DNA of 64,000 nt from Candidatus Peribacteria bacterium. GTDB taxonomy: Bacteria; Patescibacteriota; Gracilibacteria; UBA1369; LOWO2-01-FULL-3. Shown here one piece after another: positions 26,308 to 32,878 of the stretch. Position 1 is the first letter of the stretch, and the number at the start of each line of letters is the position of its first letter. Below the pieces are notes generated by a model. It searched no databases and was not told where the DNA came from. It was given only the letters and a program-made list of their open reading frames with translations. Where the stretch lies: NCBI GenBank assembly GCA_943358175.1, contig CALRGV010000001.1:62001-126000 (forward strand). The letters are read 5' to 3'. Made by a program: the position numbers and the translations under genes.

Positions 26308-26939
26308 AAACAATTGCCATAATCGATTATGGTGCTGGTAATATAAAAAGTGTTACCAACGCACTAACAAAATTAGAACAGAAATTTCAGGTTGTAAAGT
26401 CTGCTATTGAGTATGAGCGATTTGAGGCTGATTTTGCGAAATTTAGTAGGGTGATTTTACCAGGTGTGGGTGCGGCAAAGTTCGCTATGAATCAATTAAA
26501 TACTAGGGGTTTTACTAAAATTTTGCAAAATTTGACTATTCCTTTTTTTGGCGTCTGTCTCGGTATGCAGTTGCTTGCGGGGTACTCCGAAGAGGGAAAT
26601 ATTGATTGTTTGGGAATTGTGTCAGGGGTGGTGAAAAAGTTTAGAAACTTTAGAAAGTCTAAAAATTTTTCACTAAAAGTTCCTCAGGTGGGATGGAATA
26701 AAGTTTGTATTATGCGAAAATCTCCTCTTTTGGAGGGGATTACTGACAAAGAGTATTTTTATTTTGTTAATTCGTATTTTCTGCCGGTGAATGGAGAAAA
26801 TTTGTTAGCAAAAAGTTGTTATGGAAATGACTTTTCTGCGGTGATTCAGTGCGGAAATTTCTATGGGGCACAGTTTCACCCGGAAAGGTCAGGGGAAATC
26901 GGTCTAAAATTACTAAATAACTTTTGTACTAAATGTTAA
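26304..26939 (+). CDS. hisH: Imidazole glycerol phosphate synthase, glutaminase subunit
   Basis: [45 protein letters not shown]. Confidence 0.95.
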
Positions 26940-28405
26940 TCATACCTGCTATCGATATCATTAATGGTGAATGTGTGAGACTCACTCAGGGAGATTATGA
27001 TCGTAAGGAGATTTATTCAAAAAATCCTTTGAGTGTTGCGCGTGATTTTGTCCTTGCTGGAGCCAAATTTCTGCATATCGTTGATTTGGATGGTGCGAGA
27101 TCTGGTGAGCCAATAAATCAGAATTTAATTATTGAATTGTGTAATTTTGTTGATGTTCCAATTCAAGTTGGTGGCGGAATTCGCGAGATTTCTACGATTA
27201 AGAAGTATCTTAATGCTGGAGTTTCGCGAGTAATTCTTGGAACTAAAGCAGTAAAATATCCTGATTTTTTAAAAGAGGCTTTGAGTCTTTTCGGCTGCGA
27301 TAAAATCGTAGTTGCATTAGATGTAAAAGATGGGAAATTAATGGTGGATGGTTGGCTAAATTCTGCTCGAGAAGACTTGGATTATTGTTTATTAAGATTG
27401 AAAGCTGTCCGTGTTAAAAATTTGATGGTGACGGATGTGACGAAGGATGGGACTTTGGAAAAACCAAATGTTGAATTGATGCAATACGTACGGGATTTTG
27501 GTTTTGAAGTAATTGCTGCCGGTGGAATTACGAGTGAGGTTGACTTGAGAGGTTTGGAAAAAAGTTCTCAGGCAGTGGTTTTAGGAAAGGCTTTGTATGA
27601 GGGGAGATTGGATTTGAAGAAAATTTTGGCAAATCTTGAGCCAACCTCTTCTTTAACGAAACGTATTATCCCATGTTTAGATGTGAAAGATGGTCGTGTG
27701 GTAAAGGGTGTAAATTTTCTGAATTTGAAGGATGCAGGTGATCCGGTGGAGTTGGCGAAGTTTTATGCTGTTGAAGGAGCAGATGAATTAGTTTTCTTGG
27801 ATATTTCTGCGTCGGTGGAGGGTCGTAAGACGATGATTAGTATTGTAGAGAAAGTGGCTAAGGAAATTTTTGTTCCCTTTACGGTTGGGGGTGGAGTTGG
27901 AAATTTAATGGATATCAGAGAATTGTTGAACGCCGGTGCGGACAAGGTGGCTATAAATTCTGCAGCCGTGGCGATGCCTGAATTGATTACTGAGGCTGCA
28001 GAGCAGTTTGGTTCACAATGTATTGTGGTGGCTGTGGATGTGAGGTTGGTAGGTAATAAGTGGAAGGTTTTTGTGAAGGGTGGTGGAGAGGAATCTGAAT
28101 ATGAAGTTTTAGAATGGGTGAAGAAAGTTGAGAAACTTGGGGCAGGTGAAATTCTCCTGACTTCTATGGATAGAGATGGAACGAGGAGAGGTTTCGACTT
28201 GGAGCTGTTGAAGCTTGTTTCGACAAGCGTACGAATTCCGGTAATCGCTTCTGGTGGAGCTGGAAAAATGGAAGATTTCAGGGATGCTTTTCAAATTGGT
28301 AGGGCTGATGCTGCTTTGGCGGCGAGTTTATTTCATTTTGGTGATATTTCTATTAAAAAACTTAAGAATTTCATGAATTTATCCAATATTTCCACAAGAT
28401 TATGA
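26933..28405 (+). CDS. hisAF: HisA-HisF fusion: ProFAR isomerase plus IGP synthase cyclase subunit
   Basis: HisA half [22 protein letters not shown]...VGGGIRE...[10 protein letters not shown]; HisF half [21 protein letters not shown]...FTVGGGV...VAVDVR...[13 protein letters not shown]; one uninterrupted 490-aa ORF. Confidence 0.95.
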
Positions 28406-29626: not shown

Positions 29627-32600
29627 CTATTTTTTCAACTTTTTATCACTCCAGTATACGATTAGTGGCGCGGCGATGAAGATTGAAGTGTAGCCCGCTA
29701 TAATTACGCCAAGCATAAGAGCTAATACAAAGTAGAATATTGAAGCGTGGCCGAAAATCAGAATAGCGAACATTGTTAGCGCAATTGAAATAGATGTATT
29801 GATAGATCTGGCCAAAGTTTCGTTGAGAGCTTTGTTGGCAATTTCTTTTACATTATCAAGTGAGCTGGTAGTTAATGTTTCTCTTAGACGGTCGAAGATT
29901 ACAATCCTATCATTAACCGAATATCCAAATAGTGTAAGCATAGCTGTCGCAAAGAGGGCGTCAATTTCTACGTCGAGGAATTTACCAAGTACCGCGAAGA
30001 TACCCATGATAATCACTACGTCGTGTATCAAAGTAACGATAGCACTGGCACCAAAACGCCATGGGCTAATTTCTTTTGGAATTTTGCGGAAAGCAAAGTA
30101 GAGATAAATGACGATCATTATTATAGAAATCACTCCGGCAACGATGGCTTTGTTTAGTAAAGTTTCACCAAGGATTGGGCCGATAGTTGTGAAGCGAGTT
30201 TCTTCAAATGCTGATAATTTTGTTTTTAATGTTGTTAGTAGTAATTCATGGTTAGCAGGGGTGAGATAGTTGGTTTTAACTATGAATTCGTTTTTAGCTG
30301 AAGTTACTATATTAATAGAGCTGAGATTGAATTTTTCTTCATCTGTAGTCTTAATGATTTTATCATTTACTGTGCTTGGAGGAAGGGTTTCTGTTGGTTT
30401 TGTCGGAATAGTTGTTTTATTGTTTAATTCAGTACCGGTAGTCTCTAATGCTTTGAAAATTTGATCCTTTGTAATCGGATCTTTGAATTTCAAGGCCATT
30501 AATGAACCTCCTTTGAAATCAATGCCTAAATTTAAACCAAAGGTGAAAATTGCCAAGAGGGCTACCATGAAAGCAACTGCTGAAGTGGTAAACCAAATTT
30601 TGCTTTTACCGATAAAATCAAAAGATGAATCTTTTTTATCTCCGCTAACTCCCAGTAATTTTAGATTGTTAGTGATGTTTGTACTAGCAAGACCTTGTAA
30701 GAGAAGTTTGGTAATTGTTATAGCCGTAAACATGGAAACAAGGATACCTGCTGCAAGATTGAAGGCAAAACCTCTAATGATTGAGCTTCCGAAGTAAAAG
30801 AGGATACCGCAAGTAATTAATGAGGAGAAATTTGAATCTCTGATGGCGCTCCAGGCTCTGTTGAAGCCAATCTCTATGGCAGTGTTTAGTTTGTTGCCTG
30901 CTCTTAATTCTTCTTTGATTCTTTCGAAAATAAGTACATTGGCATCTACGGCCATACCGAAAGATATAATGATACCGGCAATACCGGCTAGTGTCAGTAC
31001 TACTCCACTCTTCAAGAGGAAAGTTAAGAAGAAGAATCCTACACAGCTCAATATGAATGAGAATAATTTTTCCCAACCAGGTTCACGGCCATTAATAATT
31101 TTCCAAACAATGAAGCCAAAGATAACAATGGCAATTAATAATGCCAAACCAAGATTTAGATGAGCTTTGATTAAGAAAAGGAGAAGTATGCCATAAATAA
31201 TTAAAGCTGCGCTGGCAACTAAACCAGGTAGGCGATAGTAAACGATCATGAAGACCATGACTAATAATATACCAATGAAACCGGCCATGAGACTTTGATT
31301 CAGGGCTTCTTTTCCTAGGGTAGCGCCTAATGTGTATTCTCCTGTAAGAACGATTGGTGCCGGGATAGCACCTGTATTCAAGTCTCTTGCAAGATTTTTC
31401 GCTTCTTCGTTGCTGAAGCTACCATTTATTTGGGCTTTTCCGCCGGAAATTTTTTCATTTACTCTTGGGCTGGAAATCATTTCTCCACCTACGAAGATGG
31501 CAATTGGTTTGCCAACGTTTTTTGCGGTGAGATCTTCAAACATTTTTGCACCTTCATCATCGAATTGGATATTCACATAAGGTTGAAAAAAGTTGTCTAC
31601 TTGTACATCTGCATGAACGAAGTGTTTACCGTTTAAATCCGTATCTTTCCATTCGTTAGGGTTTGTGGAATAGCTCAGTATTTCGTATTTGTACTTTTGT
31701 TGTTTAACATTTATTTGAACAGAGTCGGCACGGATTATATTGTAGCCGTTTTGGGTTTTTACAATGTCACTCATGTCTCCATCTTTCGCGAGGCTCAAAG
31801 ATGCTTTTTCAAAATCATATGGATATGAGCCATTACCGGTTATAGGGTTTTCCAGTTTTCCTCCGTTGGCGGCGCTGTCGGTATCGTCAGAGTATTTTTT
31901 AGCTAAATCTTCGAATTTGTCGCCTTTATCCAATTTATCTTTTACTTCTTTAGCAAGTTTATAAGCTTCATCTTCATTTCTAGTTACAGTAGCGGTGGCT
32001 TTTTCAGCTCCCTTGTAGGCTAGAAGAATGTTACTTACTTCTACTTGTTTTTGATCTTTAACTTCTTCTTTAATATCAATTAATTTGATAATATTTAAAC
32101 TGGTGTCTTGTACGGCCTGTCCGCTTGCATTTAAGGCAAAAGTGCCGCTGGATTCTACGAGTTTCTTTGTAACCTCTCCTGTTTTCATTTTGCCAAGAGT
32201 GTCTTTCAAATAAGTTGGAAGATCTGAGCCGAAAGCGTAGTCCGATTTTTGATATTTAATTTTGTCAGCGGCTGATTGAGATTCTTCTTGAGCTACTACT
32301 ATAAAATCTGCTCCTCCATTGATTTTATCTTGAGTTGATTGAGCGGCTTGCTTTATTTTCTCTTTTTCTTGAGGATCAAGTTCGGTTTTTTGTTCTTTGA
32401 ATTCGAGCTGGATGGTTTTCCCTACCGCTTCTTTTGCTTTTTCAATACTGACTTCTTTTTTCTCGTCGTCTGTAATACTTGCCAATACTTTGTCTTTGCC
32501 GAGATATTTATCCACATCAAGCTGTCCTATGACGGCATTGTTTGCTAATTCTACTATTATATGAGCTTCTTCGGCGATTGTAGAATTATAGATATTTGGT

Positions 32601-32878
32601 TCTTCCACTCCTAAACTGTCTACACGTTTTCTGATAACTTCCTGTACTCCATCTATGATGCTTTTACGATCTTTTTCCGGAACGCTACGAAGATCAATTT
32701 TATAATCCAACTGTGAACCACCTTGCAAATCGAGTCCGAGGTTTACTTTTGCCTTCAAAATAGATTGAGGAGTAAACGGAGCGATTTTTTGTTGAATGTT
32801 GCTAGGTAAATCAAAAAAGCCAAGAGCTAGAGTTGCTATAAGAATGGTTAGCAGTTTCCAGGAGAGATGTTTTTTCAT
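29627..32878 (-). CDS. secDF: SecD-SecF fusion with parvulin-like (PpiC) insertion(s) in the SecD extracytoplasmic domain
   Basis: LGLDLQGGSQLDYKID, GMAVDANVLIFERIKEELRAG, DFKGGSLMALKF, GYSVNDRIVIFDRLRE; inserted VSNILLAYKGAEKA...GDKFEDLAKKYSDDTDSAANGGKLENP...SLSLAKDGDMSDIVKTQNGYNIIRAD. Confidence 0.92.
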   Translation of the reverse strand: MKKHLSWKLLTILIATLALGFFDLPSNIQQKIAPFTPQSILKAKVNLGLDLQGGSQLDYKIDLRSVPEKDRKSIIDGVQEVIRKRVDSLGVEEPNIYNSTIAEEAHIIVELANNAVIGQLDVDKYLGKDKVLASITDDEKKEVSIEKAKEAVGKTIQLEFKEQKTELDPQEKEKIKQAAQSTQDKINGGADFIVVAQEESQSAADKIKYQKSDYAFGSDLPTYLKDTLGKMKTGEVTKKLVESSGTFALNASGQAVQDTSLNIIKLIDIKEEVKDQKQVEVSNILLAYKGAEKATATVTRNEDEAYKLAKEVKDKLDKGDKFEDLAKKYSDDTDSAANGGKLENPITGNGSYPYDFEKASLSLAKDGDMSDIVKTQNGYNIIRADSVQINVKQQKYKYEILSYSTNPNEWKDTDLNGKHFVHADVQVDNFFQPYVNIQFDDEGAKMFEDLTAKNVGKPIAIFVGGEMISSPRVNEKISGGKAQINGSFSNEEAKNLARDLNTGAIPAPIVLTGEYTLGATLGKEALNQSLMAGFIGILLVMVFMIVYYRLPGLVASAALIIYGILLLFLIKAHLNLGLALLIAIVIFGFIVWKIINGREPGWEKLFSFILSCVGFFFLTFLLKSGVVLTLAGIAGIIISFGMAVDANVLIFERIKEELRAGNKLNTAIEIGFNRAWSAIRDSNFSSLITCGILFYFGSSIIRGFAFNLAAGILVSMFTAITITKLLLQGLASTNITNNLKLLGVSGDKKDSSFDFIGKSKIWFTTSAVAFMVALLAIFTFGLNLGIDFKGGSLMALKFKDPITKDQIFKALETTGTELNNKTTIPTKPTETLPPSTVNDKIIKTTDEEKFNLSSINIVTSAKNEFIVKTNYLTPANHELLLTTLKTKLSAFEETRFTTIGPILGETLLNKAIVAGVISIIMIVIYLYFAFRKIPKEISPWRFGASAIVTLIHDVVIIMGIFAVLGKFLDVEIDALFATAMLTLFGYSVNDRIVIFDRLRETLTTSSLDNVKEIANKALNETLARSINTSISIALTMFAILIFGHASIFYFVLALMLGVIIAGYTSIFIAAPLIVYWSDKKLKK

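Follow-up and report, generated by a model that had tools for sequence, protein, structure and literature searches.

The window, by which we mean the whole 64,000-nucleotide stretch of DNA analysed, carries a gene for a SecDF fusion protein with two embedded parvulin domains (Table 1). The fusion of SecD and SecF, already proposed by a sequence-only reading of this DNA, was confirmed by the profile searches, as the protein scores above the cut-offs of the NCBIfam models for both secD (TIGR01129, 344 bits against a cut-off of 244) and secF (TIGR00966, 267 bits against 160). The full-length SecDF models of the PRK13024 group, which are name-giving models for particular SecDF subgroups and no definition of SecDF, give at best 570.7 bits, below their cut-off of 721. 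In the Pfam search, SecD_SecF_C and Sec_GG were each found in two stretches of the 1083-aa protein, and SecDF_P1_head at aa 412-507.

Table 1. Features of the SecDF gene, in window coordinates, and motor-less paralogs, in coordinates of their own loci
Feature	Position	Strand	Basis or remark
SecDF fusion gene with two embedded parvulin domains	29627..32878	-	1083 aa; ORF, Pfam, NCBIfam
SecD P1 base, aa 46-160	32399..32743	-	alignment with T. thermophilus SecDF ends at Tt residue 132
Parvulin domain A, aa 161-272, divergent	32063..32398	-	Pfam 25.3 bits, hhalign, AF2 secondary structure
Parvulin domain B, aa 275-392, PpiC/PrsA/Pin1 type	31703..32056	-	Pfam, solved-sequence matches, Foldseek
Asn at aa 283 of domain B, first dual-motif His site	32030..32032	-	62-sequence alignment
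Asn at aa 380 of domain B, second dual-motif His site	31739..31741	-	62-sequence alignment
SecD P1 head, aa 405-515	31334..31666	-	PF22599, 97 bits; alignment begins again at Tt residue 160
SecD membrane part, aa 520-731	30686..31321	-	contains the motor motif GMAVDANVLIFER with invariant D645
Two extra predicted TM helices, aa 574-624, between SecD TM3 and TM4	31007..31159	-	
SecF half, aa 745-1083	29627..30646	-	D996 and R1024 of proton path invariant
Motor-less SecD P1-parvulin paralogs	L168:950-2371, L199:803-2320, L169:881-1966, L162:928-1857		some with lipoprotein or secretion signals

The SecDF motor is, by its sequence, intact: all of 49 sequences share D645 of SecD and D996 and R1024 of SecF, residues that line up with the proton-path motifs of Thermus thermophilus (Tt) SecDF. 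The genome search returned this protein as the sole SecD_SecF_C protein of the genome; it serves as housekeeping SecDF in this ultra-small member of the Patescibacteria, a bacterium of the Peregrinibacteria type. With T. thermophilus SecDF (PDB 3AQP/5XAN) it shares the full fusion, the base and head of P1, Sec_GG and the proton-path residues, whereas it differs in the two parvulins described below and in the extra pair of predicted TM helices, which is conserved across the order and present neither in Thermus nor in the SecD of other Patescibacteria classes. A segment of the SecF periplasmic domain (window 30335-30415, reverse strand, about aa 822-848) has a pLDDT below 50 and is probably disordered. 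The neighbours of the gene are sugar-nucleotide and histidine genes. In an ORF of 490 aa (window 26933-28405, forward strand), HisA and HisF are joined, TIGR00007 spanning residues 3-230 and TIGR00735 residues 241-489.

Two parvulin domains in the P1 arm

A strong PpiC-like block, preceded by a second, weaker one, had been read from the letters within the extracytoplasmic domain of SecD, with a profile search named as the check. In the genome (1.38 Mb, 99% complete), the stronger block, here domain B, matches the Pfam model Rotamase (PF00639) with 70.5 bits (E 2.2e-19), and the weaker one, domain A, lies just above the cut-off of 21.7 with 25.3 bits (E 2.8e-5); this whole-genome Pfam search gave no Rotamase match elsewhere. 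When the SecDF protein was searched alone, Rotamase was found in two stretches, the best being 297-385, with a whole-protein E of 4.8e-23. The solved sequences nearest to domain B are the PrsA foldases 1ZK6 and 5HTF (E 1e-12). Domain A lacks the dual-His motif, and from its profile it counts as a genuine, though divergent, parvulin, since the profile of its family aligns with domain B in hhalign at 93.7% (E 2e-7), whereas the four control comparisons of A or B with the P1 base or head reach at most 8%.

The insertion begins directly past the P1 base strand KTIQLEFKE. When a profile of 49 relatives was aligned to T. thermophilus SecDF (3AQP), the P1 base matched up to Tt residue 132 and the match picked up again inside the P1 head, from Tt residue 160 on, with about 240 profile positions in place of about 27 Tt residues. 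Both blocks lie between P1 base and P1 head, and the extracytoplasmic location initially assigned to them holds. A known expansion of P1, considered as another explanation of the segment, was rejected, as the insert is absent from every solved SecDF and uncovered by the NCBIfam SecDF models.

AlphaFold2, which had also been suggested as a check, yielded a parvulin fold. The model of P1, for which 62 sequences were used as input, has a mean pLDDT of 79.6 and a pTM of 0.48, and the full-length model a pLDDT of 77.3 and a pTM of 0.60; the domain folds can be taken as fairly reliable, but at pTM values of 0.48-0.60 the mutual arrangement of the domains, including how the parvulins sit on the arm, cannot. 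Searched with Foldseek, the P1 model matches SecDF (E 4e-11), SurA (E 3e-7), Pin1 (E 8e-7, with an rmsd of 1.5-2 A over about 112 columns) and also PrsA, and domain B has, as modelled, a parvulin fold of the PpiC type.

These matches allow a comparison with the known parvulin systems. Like SurA from Escherichia coli, which is the best structural match to the P1 model after SecDF itself, the window protein has two parvulins in tandem, one of them degenerate. However, SurA is made as a free, soluble protein of the periplasm, its parvulins flanked by N- and C-terminal chaperone segments, whereas the window parvulins lie inside SecD. PpiD from E. coli is likewise a membrane-tied parvulin, acting together with SecDF on chains as they emerge (PMC9643414), but it is encoded by its own gene, with a single TM anchor and the partner YfgM, and is unfused to the motor. 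PrsA, the foldase of Bacillus and Staphylococcus, is the closest solved parvulin by sequence; contrary to the window parvulins, it is a separate lipoprotein.

The active-site pocket of domain B

Among 62 aligned sequences, the histidines of the dual motif are present in domain B in 57 at the first site and in 58 at the second. In all four members of the window genus, aa 283 is Asn or Arg and aa 380 is Asn, and the usual active-site Met is Tyr in the window protein and Tyr or Gln within the genus. In a wider survey of relatives, both histidines were lost only in this genus and in one other genome. Domain B of the window protein (N283, N380) therefore does not show the dual-histidine motif by which a parvulin prolyl isomerase is recognised. 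The loss of the histidines does not by itself prove the loss of activity because, according to the studies reviewed (PMC6983177), the dual histidines of Pin1 have a mainly structural role, the single mutants H59N and H157N are viable, and a double Leu mutant retains about 15% of the activity.

A search of the organism's genome for the FKBP and cyclophilin families turned up two proteins, trigger factor and a lipoprotein cyclophilin. The latter (L149:1483-2112, contig C17), with the lipobox LVGC, is probably the exported prolyl isomerase of the window organism. Of 60 relatives, 43 have a cyclophilin, and so do all four genus members. It is missing from six of the eight genomes with a Met pocket, versus a minority of those with a Tyr pocket; a strict link between cyclophilin and pocket decay is not claimed, as the lineages are few and several genomes are incomplete.

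That domain B would still be a true prolyl isomerase in the window organism, Asn/Asn having replaced His/His without loss, is unlikely. The remaining pocket residues Ser330/Asp331 and Phe356 are kept, Pin1 tolerates Asn singly at either position (PMC6983177), and most relatives have both histidines. However, both are changed in every genus member, Arg being an unlikely functional substitute, the usual Met is also replaced, and all four genomes have a cyclophilin, with its lipobox in the window genome. The isomerase activity of domain B has likely been lost in the window genus, as judged from these substitutions.

Even so, domain B shows no decay. Genus members are 81-84% identical in it, with a dN of about 0.1 and a rough omega of about 0.07 where dS is unsaturated, and in most genus pairs the SecF half has diverged further than this domain; by these estimates it is under strong purifying selection. 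The coupling of translocation to prolyl isomerisation or chaperoning that the sequence-only reading had envisaged is plausible, and its two halves fare differently. Isomerase activity is doubtful in the window protein, where both motif histidines are Asn and the usual Met is Tyr, whereas chaperoning is favoured by the strong purifying selection together with the precedents of SurA and PpiD in E. coli.

Distribution of the fusion and its motor-less copies

The nearest named genomes are those of Candidatus Peregrinibacteria and Peribacteria. Among 60 relatives, 53 have the P1 head, and an architecture search for SecD with Rotamase found both in the same ORF in 51 of these, the gene being cut by contig ends in the other two. 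An assembly or binning artefact fusing two genes is of negligible probability and is ruled out by many independent assemblies, since the identical continuous architecture recurs in dozens of independent genomes at 42-88% identity. Two genomes of the same order, rated 97-100% complete (G042 and G052), gave no match to P1 head or Rotamase, which represents either an assembly gap or a real loss. Two contigs titled Nitrospirae/Nitrospirota (L047 and L092) carry a Peregrinibacteria-type SecDF (58% and 56% identity) and look like misassigned bins.

In the class as a whole, Rotamase was found in 112 of 194 genomes, and at least 100 of these 112 encode it together with a listed P1 head in a single ORF. 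No Rotamase match came from those families of the class whose SecD reading frames contain TGA. In three Rotamase-negative families whose readable SecD frame was examined, an insert of 145-230 residues is still present, perhaps a decayed copy.

Outside the class, most Patescibacteria have an ordinary SecD of about 390-530 aa, devoid of parvulin, so that the fusion is dispensable for Sec function; if they have a parvulin, it is mostly encoded on its own, at about 300-360 aa, as in many of the Patescibacteria with a plain SecD. SecD and parvulin nonetheless share one ORF of 565-740 aa in at least 22 sampled genomes outside the class, several of them confirmed by Pfam. Most of the loci fetched have a secF-like ORF downstream, and some a SecA-like one upstream. 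These other classes have one or two parvulin copies at an identical insertion site, which favours one origin. One genome (G471, contigs C7 and C27) has both a Rotamase-bearing SecD of 716 aa and an ordinary one of 498 aa, a case of paralogy or contamination.

The distance from base strand to head in 69 proteins is stepped, with up to 30 residues in 17 proteins, 126-167 in 13, 207-260 in 27 and 345-350 in seven, and five falling between or above these classes, roughly as expected of zero, one, two and three domains. In Peribacteria, homology links the first unit to domain A (98.9%) and the last one to domain B (100%). On the SecD core tree, the insert state must have changed four times or more, and the parvulin domain tree, with too few columns, has limited resolution; these trees cannot tell one gain followed by losses from repeated gains.

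The module also occurs without the motor. Genomes of one family (f8) encode a paralog of 473-505 aa that consists of a P1 base-like segment, two parvulins and the P1 head, one of these proteins having a lipoprotein signal (FLTGC) and the other an N-terminal hydrophobic segment. In another genome of the class, a parvulin tandem of about 309 aa is encoded as a secreted protein, and a third, more distant lipoprotein of the P1-parvulin type was also found (L169). In the domain tree, at its limited resolution, the f8 paralogs and the tandem of about 309 aa fall inside the Peregrinibacteria SecDF branch, which suggests that the P1-parvulin module may work apart from the motor.

These data also bear on the possibility that the parvulins are mainly structural, a spacer that makes the P1 arm long enough for the envelope and touches no substrate. 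The stepped insert lengths, the degenerate domain A and the class relatives that keep an insert with no recognisable Rotamase would all suit such a spacer, but the retention of the dual-His motif of domain B in most of the order, the strong purifying selection on this domain and the existence of its soluble and lipoprotein forms apart from the motor make it quite unlikely.

A proposed chaperone tandem at the Sec exit

The homology of the domains, their position, the intact motor motifs, the class-wide conservation and the purifying selection are established, and with a probability of roughly 0.7 we read the window protein as a SecD whose P1 arm has been enlarged by a parvulin tandem acting as a chaperone at the Sec exit, catalytically weakened in this genus. 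The parvulins would be placed at the exit of SecYEG, beside the P1 head, where they would bind unfolded stretches of the emerging chains. During the proton-driven movement of the P1 arm, the bound chain would be held or handed on, limiting its back-sliding and aggregation. Moving along with the arm, the tandem would thus act as a chaperone of the PpiD, SurA or PrsA kind, in cis rather than recruited. In most relatives, domain B with its dual histidines may plausibly isomerise prolyl bonds as well. In the window genus, it would most likely be a non-catalytic or weakly catalytic chaperone, isomerase activity on exported proteins being left to the lipoprotein cyclophilin.

Alternatively, the module could be a docking platform for partners such as YidC, lipoproteins or proteases instead of substrates. 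The parvulin-like domains of SurA and PpiD can be non-catalytic. In E. coli, moreover, SecDF P1 has been proposed as a recruitment site: SurA binds the holo-translocon, and AlphaFold models set its parvulin domains on the P1 head of SecDF (PMC9987972). Against docking, which we regard as very unlikely, the window gene is adjoined by the sugar-nucleotide and histidine genes and by no conserved partner gene. The E. coli systems are equally precedents for the chaperone at the Sec exit, and PpiD, which touches the periplasmic domain of SecD, acts jointly with SecDF late in translocation (PMC9643414).

More tentatively, and at somewhat less than even odds, the fusion may be an integrated motor-chaperone, in which a SurA-like tandem, tethered to the P1 head, swings along with it under proton drive. 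Pulling and holding, and in most relatives isomerisation too, would then belong to one cycle. The copy number (zero, one, two, perhaps three) would vary among lineages, and the module would have been released more than once in the form of lipoprotein or secreted chaperones.

Both SecD/SecF and parvulin are known families; their combination is new as far as we found and lies outside the NCBIfam SecDF models. No description of a SecD with an embedded parvulin was found in the open-access literature, subscription journals being outside the scope of the search. The combination points to a chaperoning function that is physically built into the protein-export machine. The field has yet to settle how chaperones take over emerging proteins from SecYEG, and the contact between SecDF and chaperones in E. 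coli rests on binding, cross-linking and modelling. The occurrence of chaperone and SecDF in one protein throughout much of a bacterial phylum provides a Rosetta-stone argument that SecDF and parvulins work jointly, and the single polypeptide allows this coupling to be tested. The comparison of His/His relatives with the Asn/Asn genus would further make the isomerase separable from the chaperone function in such tests. These findings also bear on the secretion biology of the Patescibacteria, few members of which have been cultured.
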